A stretch of DNA of 37,774 bases, taken from the IMG/VR virus record IMGVR_UViG_3300007734_000655, positions 1 through 37,774 of that record. One strand, 5' to 3'. A program made the position numbers and the translations under genes. The notes beneath the pieces were generated by a model. That model was not told the DNA's origin, ran no database searches, and was given only the letters and a program-made list of their open reading frames with translations. Origin of the DNA: a virus. Below, piece after piece: positions 1-37,774 of the stretch. The stretch's first letter is position 1; each line of letters begins with the position of its first letter.

Positions 1-46
1 CGTCAATGAGGGAAGTTATGGTAATCTCTGGCTCTGGAACTTGCAT
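1..46 (-). CDS. Cas4-like exonuclease, N-terminal fragment (cut by window edge)
   Basis: On the minus strand an ATG at 46-44 opens a frame reading MQVPEPEITITSLID before the window ends. The complete gene at 35983-36699 begins MNIPEPEITITSLID, so this is the start of a variant of the same gene. It is truncated only because the window stops. It supports reading the window as circular: the leftward operon continues from position 1 to 37774. Confidence 0.85.
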   Translation of the reverse strand, partial: MQVPEPEITITSLID

Positions 47-70
47 GTTGTTTACTCCTGAAAGTTGGTT

Positions 71-101
71 GACCCCGCCGTCAAAAGCGGGGTCTTTTTT
101 T
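71..101 (+). terminator. Rho-independent terminator, plus-strand orientation (left copy)
   Basis: GACCCCGC (71-78) pairs perfectly with GCGGGGTC (87-94) across an 8-base loop and is followed by seven T residues (95-101). The U-tract is present only for plus-strand transcripts, although both flanking genes are on the minus strand. The element is kept in the other repeat copy at 36735-36766. Confidence 0.8.
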
Positions 102-103
102 GC

Positions 104-595
104 TTACTTCTTAGCCCAAGGCGGCGCAGACTTAGCCGGTGCAGCACCAGTAGCAGGCCCAACGGGCTTGAACGGCGCTACAGCAGCCGGTGTCACCCCG
201 CCCAATGCGCGGTAGCCTTTGATCTCATTACCGGCATACTCGCCCGTCTTGACCACCAGCTTGATGCCCAAGTTCCCGCCGATAAGTTGGTCGGTGTCAG
301 TCACCTTGGCAAGGCCAATGGCTCGCATGATGTCGCCAAGCTGTTGGCGACCGATCTCCTCGGCCTTGGTGCTGGCGTTCTTGATGTTCAGGTTGCCAAA
401 CACCACTCGGCCCTGATGGCTGGGGCCAGTAATGGTGTACTTGGCGGCAATGTACTTGCCGTCGCCTGCCTTGGTTGGCTTGACTTCAGCGCCGGTGATG
501 CTGGCGTTGTACCAACCCTCCGGCAAAGGCTCAAAGTTGCCAGTGTTGCCTTTCGGCAGCGTGTCGAGAGTGAATTCTTCGTCAAGAAAGGCCAT
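104..595 (-). CDS. DUF669 family ssDNA-binding-like protein (left variant)
   Basis: This 163-residue protein has the DUF669 pattern seen in phage recombination cassettes: LPEGWYNASITGAEVKPTK near residues 24-42, GDGKYIAAKY near 44-53, and GRVVFGNLNIKN near 62-73. The C-terminus is a Pro/Ala-rich linker ending PPWAKK. Such proteins sit beside Sak4/Erf-type annealases and nucleases and are thought to act as phage single-strand-binding proteins; that role is inference here. It lies in the leftward early operon, 2 bases from the preceding gene's stop. It differs from the 36769-37260 copy at nine residues (for example K15V, A51C, V98L/T99K). Confidence 0.75.
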   Translation of the reverse strand: MAFLDEEFTLDTLPKGNTGNFEPLPEGWYNASITGAEVKPTKAGDGKYIAAKYTITGPSHQGRVVFGNLNIKNASTKAEEIGRQQLGDIMRAIGLAKVTDTDQLIGGNLGIKLVVKTGEYAGNEIKGYRALGGVTPAAVAPFKPVGPATGAAPAKSAPPWAKK

Positions 596-597
596 GA

Positions 598-972
598 TTA
601 TTCCTTAGTGATAGTAAAAGTGGGACGTCCAGGTGTGGACGTAATGGCACCAAGCAGAGGCCCGGTAACGGCGTCAGCAGCCGCGCCCCATGCCTTCGCA
701 TTGATTTCGGGCTTCCAGCGAAAAAGGCTGGAAAGGTGTTCGGACAGACCAGCTTCAGCGGCCAGCATTTGCAACTTGTCGGCGTCGATCTTCTTGTTGA
801 TGCGGCCCTCCGTTTTGATGACGTAACCGTCAATGGCGTGTTTGACCGTGCCGTCCAAGTCCTTGGGGATGGCGAACGTCTCGACCATCAGGTCTTCCAG
901 TTCCCGGCGCTCGGTCACGGCAGCGGCCTCCAGCTTTTTGGCGTCAAGCCAGCGTTGGTAAAGGGTGGTCAT
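598..972 (-). CDS. Conserved phage early protein, unknown function (left variant)
   Basis: This 124-residue soluble protein begins MTTLYQRWLDAKKLEAAAVTERRELEDL, with a charged helical N-terminus (about residues 5-32). A conserved middle (VKHAIDGYVIKTEGRINKKID) and a C-terminal region ending TPGRPTFTITKE follow. Its start overlaps the preceding stop in ATGA (969-972), so translation is probably coupled. Its position between a recombinase ATPase and DUF669 suggests a part in recombination or replication, but no catalytic motif is visible. The second variant at 37263-37640 has one extra Thr and five substitutions. Confidence 0.75.
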   Translation of the reverse strand: MTTLYQRWLDAKKLEAAAVTERRELEDLMVETFAIPKDLDGTVKHAIDGYVIKTEGRINKKIDADKLQMLAAEAGLSEHLSSLFRWKPEINAKAWGAAADAVTGPLLGAITSTPGRPTFTITKE

Positions 973-1163
973 GGTTGTTCCTGTGAATCTTTAACGTACT
1001 TCGTGAGGGAAGCAAGGGAGTAATTAGCGTCACGCACATACTTGGCGAACTCGTCTAATTGAGCGTCATCCATCTGGTGAATAGCCATGCTTTTCATATG
1101 TTCCAGATTGGCGGACAATTCACCCGTCCACATAGCAATCATTCCGACTGAGGCTTGGCTCAT
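969..1163 (-). CDS. Small phage protein, 64 aa, unknown function
   Basis: I chose the ATG at 1163-1161 (MSQASVGMIAMW) because it overlaps the preceding stop in ATGA. A longer frame to 1229 would lie inside the neighbouring gene. The product is helical and charged, with no known motif and no membrane segment. It is co-translated with the next gene through another ATGA at 969-972. A partial second copy lies at 37637-37774. Confidence 0.7.
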   Translation of the reverse strand: MSQASVGMIAMWTGELSANLEHMKSMAIHQMDDAQLDEFAKYVRDANYSLASLTKYVKDSQEQP

Positions 1164-1444
1164 GCTGCACCCCCGGTGGCTTTGGCGATGGCAGCGCGGG
1201 CCCTGGCGCCATCCGATCCGCCAATGCAACCGTCAGCCATCAGCAGTTGAAGCGCCTCCAGCAGATCAGGTGCGGCGGCAAACAGACAGGCGTTAGCCTT
1301 TGCCGTACCGTCATCCGGCTCGTCAGAACACTGAGCAACAAACCAATAGCCGTTGCACGCTTTAACGTCATGCTTGACTACATCCCAGTCATCGCTATTG
1401 CCAAAATTAATCGCCAGCAAAGGCCCCGACGTATGCCCGCTCAT
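1160..1444 (-). CDS. Small phage protein with ANA.LFAAAPDLLEAL motif, 94 aa
   Basis: The product carries NACLFAAAPDLLEALQLL near residues 51-68, a signature of a widespread family of small phage early proteins of unknown function. The start overlaps the Sak4 stop (ATGA at 1441-1444) and its own stop overlaps the next start (1160-1163). It ends GGAA-stop, exactly like the upstream Sak4 gene, and the two junctions share 17 identical bases. Function unknown. Confidence 0.7.
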   Translation of the reverse strand: MSGHTSGPLLAINFGNSDDWDVVKHDVKACNGYWFVAQCSDEPDDGTAKANACLFAAAPDLLEALQLLMADGCIGGSDGARARAAIAKATGGAA

Positions 1445-2106
1445 GCTGCACCCCCAATCTTGGCAATAATCTCGCCCAAGTCAGGCGCTTCCCAGGTTCC
1501 CAGCTTGCCTGACCTATCCTTGGCAAGCCACAGGCCGTCAGAGTCGCACATCAAGGCGCGTTGGGTGTTTCCCTCGGCATCCTTCTCTACGCGCAGCGCC
1601 AGCACTTCATCAAAGAAGTAAGGCAATGCCTGCCCGGTCTTGTTACCCGGCATTGAAGGGCTGTACAGAACCCGGCCCATTTCGTCTTGGGTTTTCTCCA
1701 ACTTGGCGGTCATCAGGACATGGCGTCCGGGAATGTCGCGGAAGGCGCGGATGATATCGGCCATCTGCTCTTGCATACTGCCGTAGGCTGCGCGGGGATC
1801 TTTGTTGATTTTCTTCTCGGTGTTCAAACAGACTTCAGCGATCTCGCTGATGCTGTCCAGCGCCACCGACTTGTACTCAGACTCCAGCACCCAACTGTAA
1901 GCCTCGCGTAAGTCTTGCATTGAGGTGATCTCAATGTAAGGCAGGTCAGCGTCCTGTATAGACAGCAAACCACCTTCAGCGGACAGCACCACTGGATGCG
2001 GTAAAGTCTTGATCAGGCTGGTCTTGCCAGCCCCTGCTTGCCCGTAGACAAGCAGCTTGACACCGCTGGCACTAAGGCCGCTGGTGCGTTTCAACGAAAT
2101 AGCCAT
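1441..2106 (-). CDS. Sak4-like RecA-fold recombinase ATPase (AAA_24)
   Basis: This 221-residue protein has a Walker A at residues 22-29 (GQAGAGKT) and a Walker B-like strand ending at D84 (VALDS). Its length and layout fit the phage AAA_24/Sak4 group, small RecA-core ATPases that promote strand annealing together with a phage SSB. It is the first gene of the leftward early operon, preceded by AAGGAG six bases from the ATG. A DUF669 protein and a Cas4-like exonuclease follow, a typical Sak4-exonuclease-SSB set. No N-terminal DNA-binding domain is visible, so it is a minimal core. Confidence 0.85.
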   Translation of the reverse strand: MAISLKRTSGLSASGVKLLVYGQAGAGKTSLIKTLPHPVVLSAEGGLLSIQDADLPYIEITSMQDLREAYSWVLESEYKSVALDSISEIAEVCLNTEKKINKDPRAAYGSMQEQMADIIRAFRDIPGRHVLMTAKLEKTQDEMGRVLYSPSMPGNKTGQALPYFFDEVLALRVEKDAEGNTQRALMCDSDGLWLAKDRSGKLGTWEAPDLGEIIAKIGGAA

Positions 2107-2191: not shown

Positions 2192-2218
2192 CAACTTTAT
2201 AACGAAAGATTTAAAAAG

Positions 2219-3046
2219 ATGCGTGACCCCTTCAAAATCACCGAGCCTACCTGCATCAGCTTCAGCGGTGGCCGCACCAGTGCCTATATGCTTTGGCGAG
2301 TGCTTGAGGCTCACCAGATGAGCCTGCCACCTGAAGCAGTGGTTTGTTTTGCTAACACCGGCAAGGAAGACGAAAAGACGCTTGAGTTCGTGCGGGATTG
2401 TGCTTTGAACTGGAACGTGCCGATCACTTGGCTGGAGTACGCCGAAGTGGACTTTACCATCGTTACGTTTGAGACAGCCAGCCGCAACGGTGAGCCGTTT
2501 GAAGCGCTGATCCGCAAGCGCAACTACCTGCCCAATCCAGTGACTCGCTTTTGCACCAGTGAGCTAAAGATTCGCCCGATTGGGCGCTACTTGCTGTCTT
2601 TGGGCATAGCAGAAACTAAGACTGAAGCCGCAAACATGAGCATGATTGGTATGAGAGCAGACGAACAGCGCCGCGCCGCCAAGATTGAAGACAAGTCGCG
2701 CATCCCCCTTGTAATAGCAGGCATTACCAAAGAAGACGTTGGCGCATTTTGGCGGAAGCAGTCGTTTGACCTCGGCCTGCCAAACAACAACGGCGTGACT
2801 ATGCACGGAAACTGCGATTTGTGCTTTCTAAAGGGGGGGGCGCAAGTGTTGTCCTTGATCGCTGAAAAACCAGAACGCGCTATTTGGTGGGCAAAAATGG
2901 AGGCACTGGCACTGGCAAGCAAGCCAAGCGGCGCAGTTTTCCGCTCCGACCGCCCCAGCTACGCCTCAATGCTGCAATACAGTAAAGATCAAACCAACCT
3001 TTTTGACCCTAACGAAGAAGCAATAGCCTGCTTTTGTGGAGACTAA
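2219..3046 (+). CDS. PAPS reductase/DndC-like PP-loop protein
   Basis: This 275-residue protein has the PP-loop SGGRTS at residues 16-21 in the context CISFSGGRTSAYM, typical of the phosphoadenosine-phosphosulfate reductase superfamily. Cysteines at 112 (RFCTSELK), 199 and 202 (NCDLC), and 271 and 273 (CFC) near the end could bind an iron-sulfur cluster. Known relatives act in sulfate reduction, tRNA thiolation or DndC-type DNA phosphorothioation; the phage versions are mostly uncharacterised. The ATG at 2219 is preferred over the GTG at 2177, which falls in the regulatory dyad. It heads the rightward early operon. An 8-G run (2833-2840) lies in frame. Confidence 0.8.
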   Translation: MRDPFKITEPTCISFSGGRTSAYMLWRVLEAHQMSLPPEAVVCFANTGKEDEKTLEFVRDCALNWNVPITWLEYAEVDFTIVTFETASRNGEPFEALIRKRNYLPNPVTRFCTSELKIRPIGRYLLSLGIAETKTEAANMSMIGMRADEQRRAAKIEDKSRIPLVIAGITKEDVGAFWRKQSFDLGLPNNNGVTMHGNCDLCFLKGGAQVLSLIAEKPERAIWWAKMEALALASKPSGAVFRSDRPSYASMLQYSKDQTNLFDPNEEAIACFCGD

Positions 3047-6692: not shown

Positions 6693-6931
6693 CAGGCTTC
6701 AACTCAAAGCGCCAGATGGCGCAGGACAAGCTGACTGATGAGGCAGACACGCTGACCATTGTGTACCAAAGAGGGTTTGCCGATGGCAAGCGATCAGCAG
6801 AGCGCAAGCCGCTGACGGATGAGGAGATACAAAAAATATGGGACGGTGCTGCTGGTGCGATACCCGGATGGTCGCGTCACATTGCATACGGCCAAGCCAT
6901 TGAAGCCAAACTGAAGGAGAAGAACACATGA
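6689..6931 (+). CDS. Small phage protein, 80 aa
   Basis: I use the ATG at 6689 (MTGFNSKRQMAQDKL) because AAGGAG lies six bases upstream and it overlaps the previous stop. A longer frame from 6587 would run inside the upstream gene. The motif RKPLTDEEIQKIWDGAAGAIPGW is common in small phage proteins; the C-terminus (YGQAIEAKLKEKN) is helical. Function unknown. Confidence 0.7.
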   Translation: MTGFNSKRQMAQDKLTDEADTLTIVYQRGFADGKRSAERKPLTDEEIQKIWDGAAGAIPGWSRHIAYGQAIEAKLKEKNT

Positions 6932-7719
6932 CTTACGGCCCCGCCGTCCTCAAGCAGTGCGAACACTGCAAGAAAGAATACAAGTGCCCCAACAGCAGGG
7001 CAAGCAAGTCGCGTTTCTGCACAATTACCTGTCGCAATAAATTCGGTTCGTTTGAGCGCATTGAGTACACCTGTGTCACCTGCAACGACAAGTTTATGGC
7101 GCTGCCTGACCACGGCGCGGCGCGGCGTTTTTGTAGTCGTAAATGTTTTTTGAAAAACTGCGTACAGCCCGAAGATAAAGAATGTAAAAACTGTGGTGCC
7201 GTATTCACCGCAATGCGATCCGCTACCGTTACGCATGGCGATGGTCGGCGACTGTACTGCTCCAAAAAATGCTATACAGAACATTCCCGTAAGTTTGAGG
7301 AAAAGAACTGTAGTTTTTGTGGAGAACTTTTTTACCCTCACAGCGTTAGTCGCGACATGACGCAAAAAACATGTTCATTGAAATGTAGGACGGCGTTTTT
7401 CTCCGGTGTTAACGCACATAATTTTCAAGGAGGGGCGCACAAACCGCAAGACTCTGCCCACAAGATGGTGCTCATTGGTAAACGTAAAGGATACGTGGGC
7501 AAATACACAGCGGAACATCGCGTGTTTATTGCTAAGCACTTGGGAAGGATGTTGACGCGAAACGAAATCGTCATACATATAAATAACCAAGGGCTTGACA
7601 ACAGGCTGTCAAATTTATTTATATGTGCCTCAATGAGTGAGTACTCTCGTAGGAGGGGTGGGTCTTTGCCGTGGCCCAAGAAAAGTAACTTGGAAAATTT
7701 TAAGGAGCGCAACACATGA
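6928..7719 (+). CDS. HNH endonuclease with four tandem zinc ribbons
   Basis: This 263-residue protein has four regular CxxC...CxxxC modules: C11/C14 with C31/C35, C49/C52 with C69/C73, C86/C89 with C111/C115, and C128/C131 with C149/C153. A C-terminal HNH_3-like nuclease region reads EHRVFIAKHLGRML (H197), then IHINNQGLDNRLSNL (H217). The domain normally cuts DNA with a metal ion, and the zinc modules should bind DNA or bridge to a partner. It is richer in A+T than its neighbours and sits in the small-gene train, as a free-standing homing endonuclease would. SD GAAGGAG is good. Confidence 0.75.
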   Translation: MTYGPAVLKQCEHCKKEYKCPNSRASKSRFCTITCRNKFGSFERIEYTCVTCNDKFMALPDHGAARRFCSRKCFLKNCVQPEDKECKNCGAVFTAMRSATVTHGDGRRLYCSKKCYTEHSRKFEEKNCSFCGELFYPHSVSRDMTQKTCSLKCRTAFFSGVNAHNFQGGAHKPQDSAHKMVLIGKRKGYVGKYTAEHRVFIAKHLGRMLTRNEIVIHINNQGLDNRLSNLFICASMSEYSRRRGGSLPWPKKSNLENFKERNT

Positions 7720-8326: not shown

Positions 8327-8517
8327 CCGATCTGCCTAACTTTGCGGCCTGGGAGCGAACGACACTGGACAGGTTTGCCCTGGACGCTTACCTGAGACTT
8401 CAGGCACAGCAAGAGGCACTTGAGCAGTTGCGGCAAGACCTGCGGGATGCTATGGCTGAACTACGTAAATGTACGTGTGCCGCTGCGGTCAATGATCAAC
8501 GCCTGCCGTCTAGGTAG
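8323..8517 (+). CDS. Small helical protein, 64 aa, last gene of rightward operon
   Basis: ATG 8323 (MTDLPNFAAWERTTLDRFA) overlaps the previous stop. The middle (LRLQAQQEALEQLRQDLRDAMAEL) is a predicted coiled coil, followed by KCTC. The last 57 bases are antisense to the 3' end of the M15 endolysin gene, so the two operons converge and overlap without a spacer. Function unknown. Confidence 0.6.
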   Translation: MTDLPNFAAWERTTLDRFALDAYLRLQAQQEALEQLRQDLRDAMAELRKCTCAAAVNDQRLPSR

Positions 8518-8883
8518 CAGGACTGATGTGTTGGGGATGCTGATATGCGTCCATGAGTCATACTCGCGGATGATCTGGTCATACGGCAACTTGGCTGCAA
8601 TGATTGCCCTCACAACGGCGTCAGGAGCCATCCCAGGCACTCGGAAATCACAGGCTAGTCCTTGCCTATGCTGAGAGGTATCTTTGCTGCCTACAGCGTC
8701 ATTAACGGCTTTTGAGCGAAAGGCAGAGTTGATCATTATGGGCTTGCCGTCCAGTTTGGTCTTGACCAACTCCAAGAACTGCGCCAGCCGGGTCAAGTTG
8801 GCAATCTCAGCCGCATTGGGTGTGTTGTCCAGGCTGCGGTGGTCTGTCACCGTCAACTCGGCAAGGCTGAAATGCGGGGTCAC
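8461..8883 (-). CDS. Endolysin, peptidase M15 (DD-/LD-carboxypeptidase type)
   Basis: This 140-residue protein starts FSLAELTVTDH and has the M15 zinc signature: SAFRSKAVNDAVG, then SQHRQGLACDF with ligands H72 and D79, then WTHISI with H113. The family cleaves peptide cross-bridges in peptidoglycan; here it would release virions. It has no signal peptide, so the upstream holin should give it access. The start overlaps the holin stop (ATGA, 8880-8883). It is the last gene of the late operon. Confidence 0.85.
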   Translation of the reverse strand: MTPHFSLAELTVTDHRSLDNTPNAAEIANLTRLAQFLELVKTKLDGKPIMINSAFRSKAVNDAVGSKDTSQHRQGLACDFRVPGMAPDAVVRAIIAAKLPYDQIIREYDSWTHISIPNTSVLLPRRQALIIDRSGTRTFT

Positions 8884-9266
8884 TTTGATGCTACGCCTTG
8901 GGTCTTCTCAAACGTCCGCAACCCGCCCAGGCCCAGCATCCCCATCATCAACTGCCATAAGTTATCGTCCAAGCCAGGAAAGGCCAATTCAGGCAGGAAG
9001 GCAGTCATAAAGGGCCGAGCTAGGTACTGGTAGGCCATCGCCAAAGCGCAGACCCAGCCAATTGCTGGACGCCAGCCCGACACAAACACGCTTGGGTTGC
9101 TGGCCTCTGCTTTGTTAATCTCAGTCTGCGCGGTCATCGCTGCCAGTTCGCCTGACTGTTGCAGCTTGAGCAACTCCAACCTCGCCGCATCTTGCGCGAC
9201 AGGATCCGGGATCAGCTTGTCAATCAGCTTGCTGCCAATCCCCAGAATAGCGTCAAGGCCGATCAT
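8880..9266 (-). CDS. Holin, 3TM (GTA-type) family
   Basis: This 128-residue protein has an amphipathic N-terminus (residues 1-55) containing PDPVAQDAARLELLKLQ, then FVSGWRPAIGWVCALAMAYQ (61-80), the hallmark of the GTA_holin_3TM family. More hydrophobic segments follow up to about residue 117. Holins of this kind open the inner membrane to let the endolysin act. ATGA overlaps join it to the secreted protein before it and the M15 endolysin after it. Confidence 0.8.
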   Translation of the reverse strand: MIGLDAILGIGSKLIDKLIPDPVAQDAARLELLKLQQSGELAAMTAQTEINKAEASNPSVFVSGWRPAIGWVCALAMAYQYLARPFMTAFLPELAFPGLDDNLWQLMMGMLGLGGLRTFEKTQGVASK

Positions 9267-17132: not shown

Positions 17133-18575
17133 TCAGTCCTTAGTCGGACTGAGTACCAACTCAGCGCCCATGATGCTGACCTTTACCGGGTCAGTGCCGC
17201 TGATCTCATACACCCGGTCGCGCAGCTTGAGCGTCATGCCTAGCCGACGCCAGAACGTGCGGTAGCCGTACTCGCCGATCTGGCCCATGCTAGCCCAATG
17301 CTCGTTTGACCAAGTGTGACCGCCATCATCGCTCCAACGCAACATACATTGCGGGTCAGAGCCTTGGCCGTTATTCAGCCCCACGCCTGATTCAGCATTG
17401 AGTTGCAGGGTATGGTGAGCCGTGCGCTTGAAGTTGTTCTGACCTGGCGGCAGCGCCCTCCATGAGCGCAACCACTTTTGAATGCCGCCGTTGTCAGCAA
17501 AAATGTCTAGATTGAACTTGTAGATGTTGCCGTTCTCAAAGTCACCAACAATGATGTTGCCGCCAAAGTTGCACTGGCAATTGCTGCGGTGCCGCATAAA
17601 TAGGCCGTTATCAAACCTTGCGCGTTCATGCCATGCTTCAGTAGCTACATCGTAAACCCAAGTGGCGTTGCCTGATGGGAACGTTAGCACATAAAAGGCA
17701 TGGCCTTCCTGCTGGTACGTGTAGGCAATGGCGTCCGAGATGTTGCCGTACTGGGCAATAGCGTACTCAACGGCATGGGTAGAAACCCGAGTTCCGGTGT
17801 AGCCGTTGGCGCGGTAGACGATGCCCTGTCCACGGGCGTCTGTACCTAGCCAGAACAGGCCATTGTCAAGTTTGGCTATGGAGTATGCAGAGACGCAGCC
17901 AATCTCGTTAAACGCGCCTTGGATGCGCTGCAAAGGGAAGTCAGCAGTGCCTGCGTCATACCAGACCTCTACCGAGTCAGTACCAAACACCCATAGTTGC
18001 CGGTGGTCAGCAATAAGCCCCACTACACCATCGGGCGAGCCTTCAGCAGATGCGAAATCCAGCGGGTCAACTGAAGAGCCGTCCAGCAACTGCGATACCC
18101 AAATGATCTGGCTGTTTGGCTGGTTGAAGACAAAGTAACCGTCAAGGTACGCCACCGTCACAGCGCCAGCAAAGTCTGGGTCTGTGATCTGCGCAAACAC
18201 GTTGGTGGTTTCGTTGTAGATGTAGCCGTCTGGATTGCAGGCAAAGAAGATTTGAGTGCCGTTGTCCGCAATGGATACCGGGCCGGTGCCTGTCACCGTA
18301 CCAAGCAAAGTCGGTGTAGCCGTCATGCCGGTCAACTTGTAGACTTCATAGCCCGACACGACATAGAAGTCGCTGCCGTTGGTCTGGTGCGCCCACAGCG
18401 CCCGGATAGGGCCGGTTCCTACAGATTGCAGAAACTCCAGCCCTGGGGCGCGATTCAGAAACCCAGCCTCTAAGCCACCAGCAGGAATGGCTTCAGGGAA
18501 CAGGTTGACCATTCTGTTGTTTGCAGCGTTGACGCTACGCGCAACATAGGCGCTGCCAAGAATTGGCGTGTGCAT
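17133..18575 (-). CDS. Packaged DNA stabilisation protein, gp10-like
   Basis: This 480-residue protein fits P22 gp10 (472 residues, Phage_stabilise family). The N-terminus has ARSVNAANNRMVNLFPEA and RAPGLEFLQSVGTG; later come DGYFVFNQPNSQ, LWVFGTDSVEVWYDAG and a beta-propeller-like series of strands. Proteins of this family assemble below the portal and gp4 to close the tail machine and keep DNA in the head. The start overlaps the stop of a 36-codon ORF in TAATG. Confidence 0.85.
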   Translation of the reverse strand: MHTPILGSAYVARSVNAANNRMVNLFPEAIPAGGLEAGFLNRAPGLEFLQSVGTGPIRALWAHQTNGSDFYVVSGYEVYKLTGMTATPTLLGTVTGTGPVSIADNGTQIFFACNPDGYIYNETTNVFAQITDPDFAGAVTVAYLDGYFVFNQPNSQIIWVSQLLDGSSVDPLDFASAEGSPDGVVGLIADHRQLWVFGTDSVEVWYDAGTADFPLQRIQGAFNEIGCVSAYSIAKLDNGLFWLGTDARGQGIVYRANGYTGTRVSTHAVEYAIAQYGNISDAIAYTYQQEGHAFYVLTFPSGNATWVYDVATEAWHERARFDNGLFMRHRSNCQCNFGGNIIVGDFENGNIYKFNLDIFADNGGIQKWLRSWRALPPGQNNFKRTAHHTLQLNAESGVGLNNGQGSDPQCMLRWSDDGGHTWSNEHWASMGQIGEYGYRTFWRRLGMTLKLRDRVYEISGTDPVKVSIMGAELVLSPTKD

Positions 18576-25650: not shown

Positions 25651-26009
25651 GCTAAGAACCTCAACTTGTATAGGGTACGCAAATAAATTTCAACAATGTT
25701 GTCAATCAGTTGCTGGAGCGAAGTGTCAGTTTTGTCGCACACTTCATATCGTACTTTTTCAATTTCGTCCAATTGACCTTGAAGAAAATCAATGATGTTG
25801 GCCGTTTTTTTGTTGCTGCCCAACGTAATCTGGCCCATCAGGCCATACCTGCCTTGGTAAGTTTCAGCAAAGTCGTCAGCAGCACCAACAATACGCTCGT
25901 AAAAAATATTGAGCGCCGTGTGCTTGCTAAAGCTGCGGGTATTTAGGTGAACGCTGTGCGCTACATCCCGCGCTAGAAACAGCATCCCTACAAACTCGTT
26001 ACCTTTCAT
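25647..26009 (-). CDS. DUF5856-like helical protein, 120 aa
   Basis: The sequence MKGNEFVGMLFLARDVAHSV then HLNTRSFSKHTALNIFYE and AETYQGRYGLMGQI resembles a phage helical-bundle family (DUF5856). It overlaps both the portal stop (26006-26009) and the adaptor start, so it is tightly linked with them. The His/Glu-containing helices recall ferritin-like bundles, but metal binding is not shown. Confidence 0.65.
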   Translation of the reverse strand: MKGNEFVGMLFLARDVAHSVHLNTRSFSKHTALNIFYERIVGAADDFAETYQGRYGLMGQITLGSNKKTANIIDFLQGQLDEIEKVRYEVCDKTDTSLQQLIDNIVEIYLRTLYKLRFLA

Positions 26010-28201
26010 TGCGGCATTCCTTGTGGTTGTGGCTCCATGCCTTCTTGTGGCATCTCCATACCCGGCATATCAACATCTCGCCCAGGCATTTCGTTGATTA
26101 AGTCGCCGCTGGTAATCATGCCGTGGATTGTACCTAGTACCACCTCTTGCACCTGATCTGGCGTCATAGCTGCTGACATGGCGGTCATACGCTTGGTTTC
26201 AGCATCATACGCCTTGACCTCAGAATCAAACTGCTTAATTTGCAGGTCTTGCGCTTCCATCGACTGCTGAACGTTCTTGAGCATTTGGTGCATCTGCTCC
26301 ATTTCGTGCCCCATTGCCTGCATCTGCATATTGGCAGCTTGTAGGGCTGGGTCGTTCTCATCACCCATCAGTTTGGGGTCAATGGTCTTAGCCAACCGTT
26401 TAGCCAACTCGTCAGCACCAGGCCAGTCCATGTTCTTGACGAACAGGTCGCCAGCCACAGCCCACAGTTGCGGGTTGCCTTGAAGCAGGTTTGCCATCTC
26501 TTCCCGAGTCTCCACCCGCTTGGTGCTGTAACTTGGGCCGGTGGTCACCACCACATCGTATTTGCCGACATTGGGGTTGTAAATCTTGGCAATCTCAATG
26601 CCCTGCTGGTCAACAATCTTCTTGACCGGCTCGGGCTGCGACGGGTCAATCCGTGCCATGTTTGTCTCACCGTCTTCGCCAATAATTCGCGCAACCCGCT
26701 GGGTGTCGTAGATTTTTGGAATTAAGTCCACCAGTTGCCGGGTCACGTACCGAATGGCACGGGCCAGGTTATCAACATAGTGATAGGTTCCAACGTCACC
26801 CTCGCGCTGACGGGCTAGGATAGCCTTGCCGCTGCGTTCGTTGCCGCCCATGCCCAGACTAGCGTTGTACTGCCCAGTTGCAGCTTTAATGTCTTCAGAT
26901 GCCCCTGATTTAGCCTGTAGGAGGCCGCTGGAGGCCATTGGGGGCTGGGCACGTTGAGGTAGTGGCAGAGCAGCACCAGCGCCGTCTGTAACGTCTGGGT
27001 TGACCTCCAGATACGGCCAGTTGGTCGTATTGGCAGTCTTCCACTGAGTCTCGTAACCTTCAAACTGCCCACCGTAGCCAATGAACGGAGCCTTGGGCGC
27101 TAGGGCCAGCATCTCTGCTTCTTGGCTTACCCAGTAGTTGTACATCCGCTGAGCGTCTTTTGCGTTCCGCACCAGACCGGAAACATAGATCTGCCCGTCA
27201 ACTTCAAACTCGTTGCCTACCACGCGCACAATGGGGATGTACTTACCCGCCCAATCGCGCTTCTTTAGCGCTTCGTAGCCGTTGGTCTTGACCCAGCAAA
27301 CTTTCTCCCGCTGCACAACCCGGTTCTTCAACGGTTTGCCGTAGAGCGCCTTCAATTGCTTGTCATCAGGCGTGTTATTGAACGCCGTGATGTTGTTGGG
27401 GTACAAATTCAGGGTTTCTGCCTTGTACTCTACGTAGAAATACTCAGCAATCCGCACTGTCTCGTCGCGCAGCCACTGCGTTAGGTCTTGGTCGCCAATC
27501 CCAAGGGACTGCAAGCTGCTAATCGGCGCAGCGTCCGGGTACAGGCGTTCGTACTCGTCCTTTGGCACATCCTCCGTGACAAAGCACCACCGCGCATCTG
27601 CACCGCATGGATCTTGGATAGCGGGATCCATAAACACCGAGAACGAATTCCGAACCCGGCCAATCTTTAGATCCTGGTCAAAGCTGTTTTCGTCGCAATA
27701 CTCAGTCAGTACCCGAATGTAGCCTTCGCCGTAAGTCACCTGGTTCTCGCAGGCGGTGTCGTAGGCCGTGTCAGCGTCACTGATGTATTCAATGTGCCGC
27801 ACGATGCCGTTAAAAATCTCAGCCATCTCCGTGTTGGCAATCTCATCCGCAGGGATGACCTTACCGCTGGGGCGGTTGTGGCGCTGGTCGTTGGTGACTT
27901 GGCGAACGTGCTGCGGCAGCTTGTTAATAGTCAGGCAGGGACGGGCGTTGATGGTCTGCCCCTGCACCGCCCCGCGAGTCGCCAATACGTCAGCAGGCCA
28001 TTGCCACTGATTGTCTGGGCTACCCGCCATAAACCGCAAGTCATCCAGTTCGTTGCTGCGCGAGTCGCTGTAGGCATTCACCGCCATAGTCAGGCGTGAG
28101 CGCATTGTCGCCAGCATATCGCGCTGGTCGTCCTTCTCACCCGGCCCACCGCCGACGTTGGCAACCTGACCGACCTTGTTGATACCCGTGTAATCAGCCA
28201 T
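26006..28201 (-). CDS. Portal protein, P22 gp1-like
   Basis: This 731-residue protein is close to P22 portal (725). Recognisable features are TACENQVTYGEGYIRVLTEY, a long crown/wing region, and an extended C-terminal helix (about 600-690: MQMQAMGHEMEQMHQMLKNV) that would form the barrel. It ends in a Met/Pro/Gln-rich tail. I use ATG 28201 (MADYTGINKVGQ), which overlaps the TerL stop as TAATG; an in-frame upstream codon at 28216 lies within TerL. The portal is the DNA entry and exit ring. Confidence 0.9.
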   Translation of the reverse strand: MADYTGINKVGQVANVGGGPGEKDDQRDMLATMRSRLTMAVNAYSDSRSNELDDLRFMAGSPDNQWQWPADVLATRGAVQGQTINARPCLTINKLPQHVRQVTNDQRHNRPSGKVIPADEIANTEMAEIFNGIVRHIEYISDADTAYDTACENQVTYGEGYIRVLTEYCDENSFDQDLKIGRVRNSFSVFMDPAIQDPCGADARWCFVTEDVPKDEYERLYPDAAPISSLQSLGIGDQDLTQWLRDETVRIAEYFYVEYKAETLNLYPNNITAFNNTPDDKQLKALYGKPLKNRVVQREKVCWVKTNGYEALKKRDWAGKYIPIVRVVGNEFEVDGQIYVSGLVRNAKDAQRMYNYWVSQEAEMLALAPKAPFIGYGGQFEGYETQWKTANTTNWPYLEVNPDVTDGAGAALPLPQRAQPPMASSGLLQAKSGASEDIKAATGQYNASLGMGGNERSGKAILARQREGDVGTYHYVDNLARAIRYVTRQLVDLIPKIYDTQRVARIIGEDGETNMARIDPSQPEPVKKIVDQQGIEIAKIYNPNVGKYDVVVTTGPSYSTKRVETREEMANLLQGNPQLWAVAGDLFVKNMDWPGADELAKRLAKTIDPKLMGDENDPALQAANMQMQAMGHEMEQMHQMLKNVQQSMEAQDLQIKQFDSEVKAYDAETKRMTAMSAAMTPDQVQEVVLGTIHGMITSGDLINEMPGRDVDMPGMEMPQEGMEPQPQGMPQ

Positions 28202-29724
28202 TACGATCCCATCCATCCAGTAGATACCGCCGAATAGTCAGAGTACCGCCGAACTGACGGCTCCTTGTACTCCCGATGCGCCACAGGGAAAGCAAACGTC
28301 ACGCATATCGCATCTGCGGCATCTGGACTGGCTAAACCCCGTGCTTTCATTTCTTTCTTGCTCTCCAAGAAGATCGTACCCCGTGAATCAGGCTTCATCA
28401 AGGGCGAAATTAGGTCTGTCTTCAAAAACCTATCGTGCGGAATACTAGCAGATTTCAACCACGCTTTCATATCCCCCCACATCTGCGCCCTCATATTTCC
28501 ATACATTATCGGGTTTTTTGCCTTGTTTCCAAAGTTCACCCCCTTGATCTTGTACCGCTGCTCCTTCAACCTATCCACAATCCCCGCCCCCAGCCCACCC
28601 TCATCAATCACCACCATTGTTGGTTTGTACTCCTCCATCGCCTCAATGATGTGCCCCACCACCGTCATCGTGTCATCGCCCCGGTACTTCTTAATAGCCA
28701 CAATATCCCGCCCCTGCCGCACCGCAATCACAGTTGCATCCGCCCCAAACCGCGCAGGATCCACACCAATGATGATGGGGGCACTTGCATCCTTGTACTT
28801 TGGCCTCTTCATGGCCTCATCAACCACATCACTCGGTATAAACTGGTCATCACCCGCCCGTGGGAACTCACCGTACACCTCAACGTGCGCCTGGGCGCTG
28901 TCCGGCCCGTACTCCGCAATAATCCGCTCATAAACCGCCTTGTCCGTCCCCTCCACCGTCCGCGCATCCACCACCTTAGTCACCCAAAAGTCCCTTTTTG
29001 AGTTAAAGCACTCATAAAAGTACCCCGTATTGCGCCGTGGGTTAGAAAACGCCAACCAGAAACGATTCGGCGTGTTTTCCGTGAAGAATCCACCAGTGAC
29101 CGACCAGATCGAATCGTCAATACCTGACGCCTCATCAAAAATCACCAGCACACCATCAAAATTATGCACACCAGCATAAGCATCCGGGTTCTCTGCTGAC
29201 CATAACCTACCCTCCACGCCCCAGTACCGGGTGCCTTTCTTCAGGTCGCGCTCGACTAACTCTGTCAGCCACTTGGCTGGGGCTACTCTGGTGGCACTTA
29301 CCTCAAACCAGTGGCTGTTTAGCCCCATAGCCAACCATTTAGTTATCTCCGCCCAAGTAATTGACCGTAACTGGTTCTCGCTATTTGCCGAAATAATTGT
29401 CGTGCTACCAATCCTTGTGGACACCATCCATATAGTCAGCCAAGACACTAATGCCGACTTACCAATACCACGACCAGAAGATATTGCTTCTTGCATTACA
29501 GAGTAATTTACTTTGCCATTATTCTTAGCAATATGGTCAGTAATATCTTGCAATACTTCCCTTTGCCATTTTCTTGGGCCAGAGAAATGCTCCAGTGGAG
29601 TATTCTTAACTCCCCAAGGAAATACATACTTAACAAAAGCCAGTGGATTATCTTTTAATGCTGGACTCCATAGTATCGCCATTAACTCTTGCTCATCTTC
29701 TGGTTTGTATATAGTTGTTTGCAT
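28201..29724 (-). CDS. terL: Terminase large subunit
   Basis: This 507-residue protein has an ATPase domain with Walker A SGRGIGKS (83-90) and Walker B VLVIFDEAS (D197, E198). A nuclease domain follows with IIIGVDPARFGAD (D322), MVVIDEGGLGAG (D374) and SPDAADAICVTF (D468, D471). It packages DNA into proheads, cutting at headful; P22 gp2 is 499 residues. The coding DNA for the ATPase part (29250-29724) is clearly more A+T-rich than that for the nuclease part (28250-29230). Confidence 0.92.
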   Translation of the reverse strand: MQTTIYKPEDEQELMAILWSPALKDNPLAFVKYVFPWGVKNTPLEHFSGPRKWQREVLQDITDHIAKNNGKVNYSVMQEAISSGRGIGKSALVSWLTIWMVSTRIGSTTIISANSENQLRSITWAEITKWLAMGLNSHWFEVSATRVAPAKWLTELVERDLKKGTRYWGVEGRLWSAENPDAYAGVHNFDGVLVIFDEASGIDDSIWSVTGGFFTENTPNRFWLAFSNPRRNTGYFYECFNSKRDFWVTKVVDARTVEGTDKAVYERIIAEYGPDSAQAHVEVYGEFPRAGDDQFIPSDVVDEAMKRPKYKDASAPIIIGVDPARFGADATVIAVRQGRDIVAIKKYRGDDTMTVVGHIIEAMEEYKPTMVVIDEGGLGAGIVDRLKEQRYKIKGVNFGNKAKNPIMYGNMRAQMWGDMKAWLKSASIPHDRFLKTDLISPLMKPDSRGTIFLESKKEMKARGLASPDAADAICVTFAFPVAHREYKEPSVRRYSDYSAVSTGWMGS

Positions 29725-32717: not shown

Positions 32718-34306
32718 AAAAATGTCCTCTTTAATACGGTAAAAAAACGGCCTTCTCTCTTAAATTCTATGGCGCTCGGTGGCCTGCCCTCGGTCATCTG
32801 CCCGGCCATCTGGTGCAGTTCAGAAACCCCATAGTCCAGCACTACGCCTGATCGGTGGGCGATCTCTGCAAGTAGGCGGCGGGACTTCTCCCCGGCATAC
32901 CCGTCGTGCGTTACTGCCAGGTATTCGGTCACTGGTGGGTCTGACAAGCCCCCGTAGTACGTACAACTAAGCATTTCACGGCCACTGGCGCGAGATATAT
33001 GCTTGCGCCAAGTCCAGCTACTGACTTCCAAGTCAGTACCATCTTGGCCCATGATGTCCTGATTGTGCAGCTTCAAAGCTGGGCGCTCGGGTTCAGGGAA
33101 TGCTTCACCGCAGGCCGGGCACTCTCTTACGCTCAAGGCGCAGATTTCCTGACAGTTCTCGCACACCTTGACCGGCGCTTCGCCCTGCTTGTCGCCCTTC
33201 TTTGGTGGCGCTCTCACGGCGGTGATGGGGCCATGCTGTTCCACTACGCCTGCAAAGTCCAGCACCAAACAATGATCGGTGTGGGACTTGGGTCGCAAGC
33301 CTCTGCCGGCCATCTGCACATACAACCCAGGCGACATGGTTGGCCTCAACATGGCGATCAGGTCAATGTCTGGATAGTCGAAGCCCGTTGTCAACACGTT
33401 GGCATTCGTCAGCGCCCTCAATTTCCCATTCTTGAAATCCTCCAACATTTGCTGGCGCTCTTTGTGCGGCGTGTCGCCGGTCACGCAATCAGCGGCTATG
33501 CCGTTGTCTCGCAATACTTGGGCAATATGGTGAGCATGATTGACACCAGTGCAGAAAAATAACCATGCTTTTCTTTCTCCAGCAAGGTTTATGACTTCGC
33601 GCACCACCGATTCGTTCTGCTCATTGGTATCGACTGCAGCCTGCAATTCGGCTTCAATGTACTCTCCACCACGCTTTTTGACTTGGGATATATCCAGCTT
33701 AGATTTGGTCACTTTTGACCGCAGCGTCGATAAAAATCCTTTGTAAATTAATTGCTCAATACTGACTGATTCAATCAACTCATCAAAGATGGCCGGCTTA
33801 TCAGTGATCAGGCCATGCCCCAGGCGGTAGGGAGTGGCGGTCAGACCAATCACCCTCAAGGAAGGATTGATTTTGCTCAGTTCGGCCAACAGGCTGCGAT
33901 AGCCACCTTCATCCTTGTGAGCCACAAGATGGCATTCATCAATTATTGCGATATCGATATGCCCTATCTGCTTGGCTTTCGTCCTGACAGACTGAATGCC
34001 TGCAAACGTAATCGGCTCCCCCAGGTCGCGGCGTTTCAAGCTGGCGCTGTAGATTCCCATTGGCGCTCCTGGCCAGTGCTGGCGCATTTTGTCGGCGTTT
34101 TGCTGAAGAATTTCTTTCACATGAGTGAGCATAAGTATTCTGGTTTCAGGCCAATTCTGCAAAGCGTCTTTGCACAAATATGCAATTACATGACTTTTAC
34201 CGGCTCCAGTTGGAAGAACCAAACAAGGATTTCCGTTGTTTCCAGATTCAAACCATTCATATATTGAATTAACGGCCTTTAATTGATATTCACGAAGTTG
34301 TTGCAT
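32714..34306 (-). CDS. DECH-box SF2 helicase with zinc ribbon
   Basis: This 530-residue protein has motif I PTGAGKS (32-38), motif II DECH (123-126), motif III TATP (156-159) and motif VI QMAGRGLR (331-338). A zinc ribbon follows, with C382/C385 (CENC) and C396/C399 (CPAC). It belongs to the ResIII/UvsW-like SF2 helicases of phages that remodel replication or recombination intermediates. I use ATG 34306 (MQQLREYQ); a TTG at 34318 is possible. The start overlaps the endonuclease VII-like gene. Confidence 0.88.
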   Translation of the reverse strand: MQQLREYQLKAVNSIYEWFESGNNGNPCLVLPTGAGKSHVIAYLCKDALQNWPETRILMLTHVKEILQQNADKMRQHWPGAPMGIYSASLKRRDLGEPITFAGIQSVRTKAKQIGHIDIAIIDECHLVAHKDEGGYRSLLAELSKINPSLRVIGLTATPYRLGHGLITDKPAIFDELIESVSIEQLIYKGFLSTLRSKVTKSKLDISQVKKRGGEYIEAELQAAVDTNEQNESVVREVINLAGERKAWLFFCTGVNHAHHIAQVLRDNGIAADCVTGDTPHKERQQMLEDFKNGKLRALTNANVLTTGFDYPDIDLIAMLRPTMSPGLYVQMAGRGLRPKSHTDHCLVLDFAGVVEQHGPITAVRAPPKKGDKQGEAPVKVCENCQEICALSVRECPACGEAFPEPERPALKLHNQDIMGQDGTDLEVSSWTWRKHISRASGREMLSCTYYGGLSDPPVTEYLAVTHDGYAGEKSRRLLAEIAHRSGVVLDYGVSELHQMAGQMTEGRPPSAIEFKREGRFFTVLKRTFL

Positions 34307-34928
34307 TGTGTTTCTCAATATATTTAGATGCTTTTAAAAACAATATCTCACTTTCTTGCAGCAATCCAATTGCTTGATTGCATTTTTGACAAAGCAAACC
34401 TCTTACTTTTTTAGTTAAATGACAATGGTCAATGTGGTAACCTTTTTTAATTTCAACATTGCAAATTACACACTGGCAATTTTGATTAATTAACATTTGC
34501 GTTACGTCAAATTCAGACAAACCATAAAGTTTTTGCACACGCGCCCATCGAGTTTTGTCTGTTCTTTTGGCTCTTGATTCAACATCGCAATCAATGCAAT
34601 TGTTAGTTGTCACATATCGACGGTAATGCCCATGTGGACAAGCGGCATCAGCCAAATATTCCAAAGCGCCATCATTTATTGCTGCCAACGCAGACGCATG
34701 ATTTACAGCAGATCGTTTGCTTGATCTACCACTTGAATTTATGGACGCCTTGCCACGCGCTTTAGCAATGCACTCAACGCAGTTGCCAGAAGATGCGTAT
34801 CGTGGTGACAAATGCTCCTTCAAGCATCTTTTTCCGCTGAAATACAGCGTCTGTCCAAGTTCTCTGGCCCGAAAACCAGTGGCTGGAAGTTTTGAAAACT
34901 CTTGGTGAAATTCGTGTTTCTTTGCCAT
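34290..34928 (-). CDS. Endonuclease VII-like HNH protein
   Basis: This 212-residue protein ends with C153/C156 (CVIC), YHIDHCHLTKKVRGLLC (D167, H168, H170, C180) and C183-N184, the recombination endonuclease VII signature. Two preceding CxxxH...CxxC modules (C35-H39-C50-C53 and C97-H99/H101-C111-C114) are duplicated N-terminal zinc fingers. It may resolve branched DNA during packaging, or act as a free-standing homing endonuclease. The DNA is A+T-richer than neighbours, suggesting acquisition. Confidence 0.85.
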   Translation of the reverse strand: MAKKHEFHQEFSKLPATGFRARELGQTLYFSGKRCLKEHLSPRYASSGNCVECIAKARGKASINSSGRSSKRSAVNHASALAAINDGALEYLADAACPHGHYRRYVTTNNCIDCDVESRAKRTDKTRWARVQKLYGLSEFDVTQMLINQNCQCVICNVEIKKGYHIDHCHLTKKVRGLLCQKCNQAIGLLQESEILFLKASKYIEKHNATTS

Positions 34929-34963: not shown

Positions 34964-35326
34964 TCATCCCACCACCCTGCCATCCCATTCCTTCCGCAAA
35001 TCCATCAAAAACGGATCACCACTCGCACAAGCCGCAGCATTGGCTAACAGTTCTTTTGAGCCGTAAACCCCCTCGCCCGGCTCACCATTGGCAATTCCCT
35101 GCCCGTCGATCTCATAGACTGCCACCCAGTCGCTTGGCCCTTCCAGGCGTTTCCACGGCACCAGATCAGGGTGCAGGACATGGCTCTCGCAGCCGATATG
35201 CTGGGCATCAGTCGGCACAATGTCATCCCACTTGGCGCAGTGCCAGGTTGAATCACTCAGTGGCGTAATGTGGGCGCAGGTGCGGCAATTCACCTGAATG
35301 TATTTAGCCCAATCGTTATTTGACAT
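34964..35326 (-). CDS. Zinc-binding phage protein, 120 aa
   Basis: I use ATG 35326 (MSNNDWAKYIQVNC), with AAGGAG eight bases upstream; a longer frame to 35401 runs into the previous gene. Cysteines C14/C17 (CRTC), C30 (WHCAKW) and C46 (GCESHV) suggest zinc binding. The C-terminal half has ANAAACASGDPFLMDLRKEW. Function unknown; an early-operon accessory protein. Confidence 0.7.
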   Translation of the reverse strand: MSNNDWAKYIQVNCRTCAHITPLSDSTWHCAKWDDIVPTDAQHIGCESHVLHPDLVPWKRLEGPSDWVAVYEIDGQGIANGEPGEGVYGSKELLANAAACASGDPFLMDLRKEWDGRVVG

Positions 35327-36014
35327 TTTTATATCTCCTTTGATTTTTAACTTGTTCAGATGCAGTTGACCACTTGCAATTTTTTGGCTCGTAATTTCCA
35401 TCTACATCAATTCGATCAATAGACATTCCAATAGGACGTTCACCCATGTCTTTTAAAAAGTTTTCAAAACTGCTCCAGTGTTCACATACAGATATTCCAC
35501 GTCCACCGTAGTGTTTGAAATTTCTTGCGTTTGGATTTCCACATCTTGTACGCATGGAATACCAAGAAACGTAAGTTGGTGATAATTTTCCAGATCGTGC
35601 ATGACCATGTTTTGTGTGTGTTTCAAGCAAAACATCCAAATGCAAACAACCGCATGATCTTTTGTTCCCACTTCGAAGTTCGACCCCAACTGCAAGCGTT
35701 ACTTGACCACAATCACAAACACATTTCCAGAGAATATGGCGCTTCAAATTGCTTGAGTTTTCAGCTTTCAAAACAAGCAAACGATCAAACTTTTTGCCAG
35801 TCAAATTATGTTTTTGTCTTTGAAAATCTTTAGATGCACACCCACAACTTGGCTCACGACCAGTTCTAAGAGAAACAGCAGTTTTTACACATTGATTTCC
35901 ACAATCACAAACACATTTCCAGCTTGGATGACGACCTGTAACGCGCTCTCCAATCATTTCCAACACTATCAATCTGCCAAATTTATTGCCCATCATTGCT
36001 ACGCGCTCTTTCAT
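35316..36014 (-). CDS. Putative mobile endonuclease with duplicated DCG/SCGC zinc modules
   Basis: This 232-residue protein has two tandem modules, CVCDCG (34-39) with SCGC (56-59) and CVCDCG (98-103) with SCGC (120-123). A C-terminal region then reads SMRTRCGNPNARNFKHYGGR, GISVCEHW, FLKDMG and IDRIDVDGNYEPKNC. This family is spread among phages and is usually called HNH- or homing-endonuclease-like. SD AAGGAG lies seven bases before the ATG. It overlaps the exonuclease 3' end by 32 bases and the next gene by 11, as an inserted mobile gene might. Confidence 0.65.
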   Translation of the reverse strand: MKERVAMMGNKFGRLIVLEMIGERVTGRHPSWKCVCDCGNQCVKTAVSLRTGREPSCGCASKDFQRQKHNLTGKKFDRLLVLKAENSSNLKRHILWKCVCDCGQVTLAVGVELRSGNKRSCGCLHLDVLLETHTKHGHARSGKLSPTYVSWYSMRTRCGNPNARNFKHYGGRGISVCEHWSSFENFLKDMGERPIGMSIDRIDVDGNYEPKNCKWSTASEQVKNQRRYKNVK

Positions 36015-36699
36015 GATTTACTCCTTGTTCACGAAAGCACACTATACCATAAGCAGGACACATCTTGCACTCAAACCAAGTCGGGTCAGTGCTTATCGGT
36101 GGTGGCAGACGGTCAGTCAGCGCCAGCCGTTGGCCCTTCTCAATAGCCTTCACCGCATGGTCTTTGTCGTACTCAAGCCGTTCGGTGTAAATTCGGTCAT
36201 CATCTTTGCAGACGGCAACGTACAAGGCACGTTTCAAGGCAGTCCCGTGCATATACACTTGGCATTGGGTGAAATGCTGGGGCTTACTCTTTGCCACGCC
36301 ATTCTTCTCTAGGTCATTGAATGACTTGAGACTGTGGGTCTTGAACTCCAGAACGTGTTCAGTCTTTGGCGCACCAAGCACGCCCTTGCCAATACCATCC
36401 AGACTCCCGCTAACGTGACTGCCAAAGTCAACCCGGCGCTGGGTTCCGCTAACGCTCATGCCAATAGCGCGTAGGTCGCTGATGATGGTGGCCTCCTCGG
36501 CAAAGCCACGCCTGAACAGTCTCAGGATTCTGCCTTGGAACTTCTCAACGACTGCCCAGCGAAAACTGAGCCAAAGCCAGCGTTCGCAATGGTGGCCCAG
36601 CGTAGAGCAACCCATATGGGCGCGGGGCTTCTCAATTCGTTCCTGATGGGCAGCGTCAATGAGGGAAGTTATGGTAATCTCTGGTTCAGGGATATTCAT
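35983..36699 (-). CDS. Cas4-like PD-(D/E)XK exonuclease
   Basis: This 238-residue protein shows C31/C38 in GCSTLGHHCERWLWLSF, the nuclease Asp in SGSLDGIG (D101), E118 and K120 in HVLEFKTHS, and a QxxxY motif (Q145, Y149). C211, C214 and C221 (CKMCPAYGIVC) lie at the C-terminus. One N-terminal plus three C-terminal Cys is the iron-sulfur pattern of Cas4/AddB-type exonucleases. With Sak4 and DUF669 it forms a recombination or end-resection set. The other end of the window carries its variant start (1-46). Confidence 0.85.
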   Translation of the reverse strand: MNIPEPEITITSLIDAAHQERIEKPRAHMGCSTLGHHCERWLWLSFRWAVVEKFQGRILRLFRRGFAEEATIISDLRAIGMSVSGTQRRVDFGSHVSGSLDGIGKGVLGAPKTEHVLEFKTHSLKSFNDLEKNGVAKSKPQHFTQCQVYMHGTALKRALYVAVCKDDDRIYTERLEYDKDHAVKAIEKGQRLALTDRLPPPISTDPTWFECKMCPAYGIVCFREQGVNHERARSNDGQ

Positions 36700-36734
36700 G
36701 GTTGGTGTTCCTGTTGTATGTTGTTGCTCATATT

Positions 36735-36766
36735 GACCCCGCCGTCAAAAGCGGGGTCTTTTTTTT
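36735..36766 (+). terminator. Rho-independent terminator, plus-strand orientation (right copy)
   Basis: The stem GACCCCGC/GCGGGGTC (36735-36742 and 36751-36758) is followed by eight T residues. The stem and loop are identical to 71-94 although the sequence upstream differs, so it is conserved. It points against the flanking minus-strand genes. Confidence 0.8.
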
Positions 36767-36768
36767 GC

Positions 36769-37260
36769 TTACTTCTTAGCCCAAGGTGGCGCAGACTTAG
36801 CCGGTGCAGCACCAGCAGCAGGCCCAACAGGCTTGAACGGGGCTACAGCAGCCGGTGTCACCCCACCCAATGCGCGGTATCCCTTGATCTCATTTCCGGC
36901 GTAGTCGCCCGTCTTGACCACCAGTTTGATGCCCAGGTTGCCGCCAATCAGTTGGTCGGTGTCCTTCAGTTTGGCAAGGCCAATGGCCCTCATGATCTCG
37001 CCAAGCTGTTGCCTTCCGATCTCCTCCGCTTTGGTTGAAGCGTTCTTGATGTTGAGATTGCCAAACACCACGCGCCCTTGATGGCTGGGGCCGGTGATGG
37101 TGTACTTGCAGGCAATGTACTTGCCGTCACCCGCTTTAGTGGCCTTGACTTCCGCGCCTGTGATAGTTGCGTTGTACCAGCCCTCGGGCAGTGGTTCAAA
37201 GTTTCCGGTGTTGCCAACGGGAAGGGTGTCAAGGGTAAATTCTTCGTCTAAAAAAGCCAT
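36769..37260 (-). CDS. DUF669 family ssDNA-binding-like protein (right variant)
   Basis: This 163-residue variant of the 104-595 gene differs at nine residues (V15, T32, A40, C51, E88, L98, K99, D119, A149). Motifs are unchanged, so both forms should be functional. Substitutions are mostly conservative, fitting an allele rather than a decaying copy. It lies between the 125-residue gene and the exonuclease. Confidence 0.75.
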   Translation of the reverse strand: MAFLDEEFTLDTLPVGNTGNFEPLPEGWYNATITGAEVKATKAGDGKYIACKYTITGPSHQGRVVFGNLNIKNASTKAEEIGRQQLGEIMRAIGLAKLKDTDQLIGGNLGIKLVVKTGDYAGNEIKGYRALGGVTPAAVAPFKPVGPAAGAAPAKSAPPWAKK

Positions 37261-37262
37261 GA

Positions 37263-37640
37263 TTAATCCTTAAAGATTGTAAAAGTAGGGCGTCCAGGGG
37301 TGGACGTAATAGCACCAAGCAAAGGCCCAGTCACGGCGTCAGCAGCCGACCCCCAAGCCTTTGCATTGATTTCTGGCTTCCAGCGGAAAAGGCTGGAAAG
37401 GTGTTCAGACAGACCAGCCTCTGCAGCCAGCATCTGGAGTTTGTCGGCGTCGATCTTCTTGTTGATGCGGCCCTCCGTTTTGATAACGTAACCGTCAATA
37501 GCGTGTTTGACCGTGCCGTCCAAGTCCTTGGGAATGGCGAACGTCTCGACCATCAGGTCTTCCAGTTCCCGGCGCTCGGTCACGGCAGCAGTCTCGATTT
37601 TCTTGGCGTCAAGCCAGCGTTGGTAAAGGGTGGTTGTCAT
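37263..37640 (-). CDS. Conserved phage early protein, unknown function (right variant)
   Basis: This 125-residue variant of 598-972 has one extra Thr (MTTTLYQRW) and five substitutions (I/L, T/A, S/A near residue 98, F/T and D/E at the end). I use ATG 37640, which overlaps the upstream stop in ATGA; a longer frame to 37655 has no RBS. The conserved centre is intact. Confidence 0.75.
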   Translation of the reverse strand: MTTTLYQRWLDAKKIETAAVTERRELEDLMVETFAIPKDLDGTVKHAIDGYVIKTEGRINKKIDADKLQMLAAEAGLSEHLSSLFRWKPEINAKAWGSAADAVTGPLLGAITSTPGRPTFTIFKD

Positions 37641-37774
37641 GAGTTTTCCTGACATTCTTTAACGTACTTGGTGAGGGAAGCAAGAGCGTAATTAGCGTCA
37701 CGCACATACTTGGCGAACTCGTCTAATTGAGCGTCATCCATCTGGTGAATAGCCATGCTTTTCATATGTTCCAG
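37637..37774 (-). CDS. Small phage protein, C-terminal part (cut by window edge)
   Basis: The minus-strand frame reads LEHMKSMAIHQMDDAQLDEF onward for 45 residues to a stop at 37637. It matches the C-terminal 45 residues of the 64-residue protein at 969-1163, with a different end (KECQENS instead of KDSQEQP). The missing N-terminus is only the window edge. Confidence 0.75.
   Translation of the reverse strand: MEHMKSMAIHQMDDAQLDEFAKYVRDANYALASLTKYVKECQENS

Follow-up and report, generated by a model that had tools for sequence, protein, structure and literature searches.

The window, by which we mean the whole 37774-base stretch of viral DNA analysed here, begins and ends with versions of the same sequence. 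Alignment with BLASTN and MAFFT gave a single plus/plus match from end to end between positions 1-1106 (copy A) and positions 36654-37774 (copy B), with 87% identity and an E value of 0. The repeat lies exactly at both ends of the window and in direct orientation, and the MAFFT alignment contains 131 substitutions and 15 gap columns. This bears out the first-pass annotation, which had described diverged direct copies at the window ends that agree exactly over 31 bases on the left side and over 87 on the right side. A chance likeness of the two ends is ruled out by 87% identity over the whole length with E = 0. The repeated segment contains, on the minus strand, the start of an exonuclease gene, a complete DUF669 gene, a complete DUF7173 gene, and the end of a 64-amino acid open reading frame (ORF). 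The features of the two ends and their surroundings are as follows:

1-1106, no strand assigned: copy A of the repeat at the left contig end (BLASTN/MAFFT against 36654-37774)
36654-37774, no strand assigned: copy B of the repeat at the right contig end (BLASTN/MAFFT)
1-31, equal to 36654-36684, no strand assigned: exact 31-base left run, at the start of the exonuclease gene
1020-1106, equal to 37688-37774, no strand assigned: exact 87-base right run, from the alignment of both ends
104-595, minus strand: DUF669 copy A, 163 aa (PF05037, E 2.2e-10; phrog_6015, E 2.9e-25, a single-strand DNA-binding family in PHROGs)
36769-37260, minus strand: DUF669 copy B, 163 aa, nine residues unlike copy A (PF05037, E 1.8e-11)
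598-972, minus strand: DUF7173 copy A, 124 aa (PF23791, E 1e-15)
37263-37655, minus strand: DUF7173 copy B, 130 aa as called, with the homologous start at 37637 (PF23791, E 2.1e-15)
35983-36699, minus strand: exonuclease of the Cas4-domain type (phrog_1990, E 3.1e-76)
969-1163, minus strand: 64-aa ORF, complete at copy A and truncated by the right contig end at copy B; its homologue in relatives is called orf4
1441-2106, minus strand: AAA_24 ATPase (PF13479, E 7.6e-29), the upstream neighbour of the operon and single-copy in the window

The first 15 codons of the exonuclease gene have an altered second occurrence at 1-46 in copy A.

The differences between the copies are concentrated at third codon positions, which account for 54 of the 70 differences in DUF669 and 28 of the 36 in DUF7173. 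Nine codons of DUF669 and six of DUF7173 are altered in the amino acid they encode, and the alignment agrees with the earlier count of nine differing residues out of 163 in DUF669. The Nei-Gojobori dN/dS was approximately 0.07 (0.046/0.68) for DUF669 and approximately 0.08 (0.033/0.39) for DUF7173. Both copies appear to be under purifying selection and look like functional genes with separate histories, their differences having the character of old coding alleles.

The rest of the window is that of a P22-like podovirus. It contains genes for a P22-type portal protein at 26006-28216 (PF16510, E 1.4e-175) and a phage stabilisation protein similar to gp10 at 17133-18575 (PF11134, E 3.1e-8, 33.1 bits against a cut-off of 25). 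This gene content suggests that the DNA is packaged by the headful mechanism and is circularly permuted and terminally redundant. The window resembles phage DSL-LC05 (OR003940) and other P22-like freshwater podoviruses, with a TerL of DSL-LC05 that is 67.6% identical over its full length and a structural gene set of the same kind. The DSL-LC05 record is of a circular, complete genome of 37,569 bases and describes no end repeat. A peptidase M15-type endolysin adjoins a three-transmembrane holin of the GTA_holin_3TM family at 8461-9266, and no tRNA or other integration landmark was found within the window. On the plus strand at 2204-3046 there is a gene similar to phosphoadenosine phosphosulfate reductase (phrog_424, E 2.8e-46, below the Pfam cut-off) that is present in only some relatives and has a possible auxiliary metabolic or DNA-modification role. 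The stretch at 35297-36055 carries an HNH endonuclease gene (35316-36014, phrog_374) between the exonuclease and 34964-35401. In locus L054 and many other relatives, only about 40 bases separate the flanks of this stretch, so the stretch looks like a mobile homing-endonuclease insertion. Two more nuclease genes, one of the endonuclease VII type (PF02945) and one of the HNH type with FCS zinc-finger-like motifs, are located at 34290-34928 and 6928-7719. One contig of the group, IMGVR_UViG_3300023184_000103 (G006, locus L045), has a single-copy early operon in 68272 bases, nearly twice the usual genome length of the group; it could be a larger phage, include a prophage region, or be chimeric.

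The first-pass annotation had also proposed that removal of one copy leaves an unbroken early operon and a genome of about 36.65 kb. This proved correct for either copy. Without the right copy 36,653 bases remain, and the resulting join of 36653 to 1 retains DUF669, DUF7173, and the 64-aa ORF together with an intact 238-aa exonuclease that has the N-terminus of copy A. Without the left copy 36,668 bases remain, and the join of 37774 to 1107 leaves the same three ORFs intact. Both joins are seamless, and each gives one continuous leftward operon of a genome of about 36.65 kb.

There are hundreds of relatives of DUF669 in IMG/VR. We examined 82 related loci, 68 of which hold AAA_24, DUF7173, DUF669, and the exonuclease. 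These four flanking genes were single-copy and collinear across the join of the window in all 68. DUF669 occurred once in each of the 29 whole records and also once in each of four further records that have it. Among these 68 four-gene loci, and for DUF669 among the 29 and four records, no relative had a second copy of the segment.

We compared copies A and B with other strains over DUF669 and DUF7173 combined. The two copies share 87.8% identity, and each shares 88.1% with L054, the best match among independent genotypes. A and B are thus as far apart as separate strains of this group are, which suggests that at least two strains approximately 12% apart at this locus were together in the sample. 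Trees joined A and B in 0% of bootstraps with the full set and in 1% with the subclade; A and B as sisters were not rejected by the AU test (p 0.71 for the full set, p 0.41 for the subclade). The subclade tree is star-like and places A or B with no particular relative, and by itself the tree would be weak evidence on the origin of the two copies. Exact-pattern scans of IMG/VR found no partner strain carrying the A or B alleles or the 87-base run, and a degenerate DUF7173 pattern matched one contig, 3300011114_000270, the source of L054 and L083. The exact 87-mer was absent from all other fetched loci. The 98 bases at 1054-1151 are identical to locus L006, showing that the area of the 87-base run is conserved between strains.

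The position of the right end may reflect an assembler stop. A de Bruijn path that follows one allele stops at the first k-mer shared with the other allele after their last difference. In the coordinates of copy A, the copies last differ at 1019, and the contig stops at 1106, which is the final base of the first 87-mer that they share beyond that difference. From these positions k would be 87 for this contig, a value that is suggestive only. The shared run at the left end is 31 bases, against the approximately 87 expected from a plain bubble at k = 87. Because of this shortfall, it is likely that the assembler trimmed or cut the left end, or that the contig was retained from a lower k. The earlier description of the window as a bubble between coexisting haplotypes would need this refinement at the left end.

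A k of 87 is in use for freshwater viromes. MiSeq reads of the Lake Soyang virome 3300011114 were assembled with SPAdes at k values of 27, 47, 67, 87, 107, and 127 (PMC7553992), and the Han River viromes were assembled with the same SPAdes series, 87 included (PMC7265639); the MiSeq reads in both studies were 2 x 300 bases. At least one sample from these studies, 3300011114, is represented in this phage group, being the source of the near-complete relative G007. Circular contigs with end overlaps of k length (maxK) were described with COBRA, where within-population variation was also simulated as a cause of contig breaks (PMC10914622), and de Bruijn assemblers cannot pair upstream with downstream contigs where a region is conserved over more than k (PMC11443906). 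The window is like the circular contigs described with COBRA in that its ends repeat each other and its right end is exact over a k-like 87 bases. It is unlike an exact maxK repeat in that the overlap extends to 1.1 kb and is diverged, with the two ends most likely following different strains.

We compared the ends of 22 near-full-length relatives (33.8-40.1 kb). Six had an exact end overlap, of 125, 127 (four times), or 169 bases, seven had an imperfect one, and nine had none. Four of the seven imperfect overlaps were short, 126-157 bases at 98.5-100% identity, and either contained a mismatch or had a ragged tail. Raggedness like that of the left end of the window occurs in G001, G004, G055, and G059. 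Two others, G030 (IMGVR_UViG_3300023184_000293) and G033 (IMGVR_UViG_3300011335_000533), share with the window a direct imperfect overlap of 1.1-1.35 kb, and their unique sequence likewise amounts to about 36.5 kb. They differ from it in that the overlap is not in the early operon: in G030 it covers 1097 bases of the portal gene at 93.2% identity, and in G033 it covers 1349 bases of the coat/scaffold region at 97.6% identity. The remaining one, G031 (IMGVR_UViG_3300010970_000096), had an overlap of 392 bases at 83% identity, and its ends had no match to the proteins of the window. The site of the overlap thus moves between contigs, as is expected when assembly cuts a circular map at strain variation and not when a conserved operon is duplicated.

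Based on these results, the repeated ends are very probably an assembly overlap of a circular-map phage genome across two co-occurring strain haplotypes, with one copy in each virus. The contig would represent a P22-like genome of about 36.65 kb, circular or circularly permuted, opened at one point into a linear sequence. At the left end the assembler would have entered the early operon on the allele of one strain, and at the right end it would have come out on the allele of a second strain, halting where the alleles match for 87 bases, and we infer that the join was made by the assembler. Beyond the overlap itself, this reading, which the first-pass annotation had favoured, is supported by the single-copy and collinear relatives, by a divergence between A and B equal to that between strains, by the seamless joins, and by the diverged overlaps in sister contigs. 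Counting against it are the left run of 31 bases, which obliges one to assume trimming or a lower-k contig, the AU result that leaves A and B acceptable as sisters, and the failure of the IMG/VR scans to turn up an exact partner strain contig for either copy. The earlier wording of a circular genome stands as far as the map is concerned, but the P22-type genes suggest that the packaged DNA is linear, headful, and circularly permuted.

Headful packaging would also allow another origin for ends of this kind. After a mixed infection, a headful cut from a recombinant concatemer could yield a terminal-redundancy heterozygote, a molecule with the allele of one strain at one end and that of the other strain at the opposite end, and the contig could represent such molecules. 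The portal and stabilisation proteins suggest the required packaging, the overlap at 3% of the genome is a plausible redundancy, and those of G030 and G033 are of like size (1097 and 1349 bases). Molecules with different alleles at their two ends are known for phage T5, according to Fischhoff et al. 1976 as cited in PMC6375668. The T5 heterozygote, as presented there, is a transient state of a single molecule and would need single-molecule data to appear in a contig. Since headful packaging gives each molecule permuted ends, a short-read assembly should not reproduce the ends of any one of them. The MiSeq reads in the two virome studies were 2 x 300 bases, and at least one of the samples, 3300011114, is in this group (PMC7553992, PMC7265639). 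The exact halt at a shared 87-mer likewise fits an assembler and not a packaging cut. We consider this origin improbable, and it is slightly less probable still that the window, G030, and G033 all capture heterozygote headful molecules formed between co-infecting freshwater strains. If they did, inter-strain recombination in mixed infections would be readable directly from wild phage DNA.

A real tandem duplication of DUF669 and DUF7173, diverged and kept in one genome, would account for two copies that are both intact, conserved, and under purifying selection, and the AU test did not reject A and B as sisters. Yet no relative has two copies, the copies lie exactly at both contig ends with each cut mid-gene, their divergence equals that between strains, and the diverged end overlaps of other contigs fall in unrelated genes. 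The first-pass annotation had listed a duplication as the lesser option, and we agree in regarding it as very improbable. Fixed direct terminal repeats of a linear genome of the T7 type that have drifted apart would explain a direct orientation at both ends but are hardly credible here, being rejected on the continuity of the operon through the join in all 68 related loci, with end positions that vary between relatives, a P22-type portal, and replication through concatemers that normally keeps the terminal repeats of linear phages identical.

Thus, the repeated ends are most likely an ordinary assembly artefact and not a new kind of genome end, and the window most likely represents all or nearly all of a circular-map genome from a mixed-strain sample. 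The record would then be of a complete genome entered at more than its unit length, with two genes falsely duplicated, and is best trimmed to one copy. Gene counts or claims of duplication drawn from such records would be wrong. The same effect in several contigs of the group means that complete genomes with ends from different strains escape searches limited to exact terminal repeats. Screening IMG/VR systematically for imperfect terminal overlaps would probably uncover complete genomes with unrecognised end repeats.
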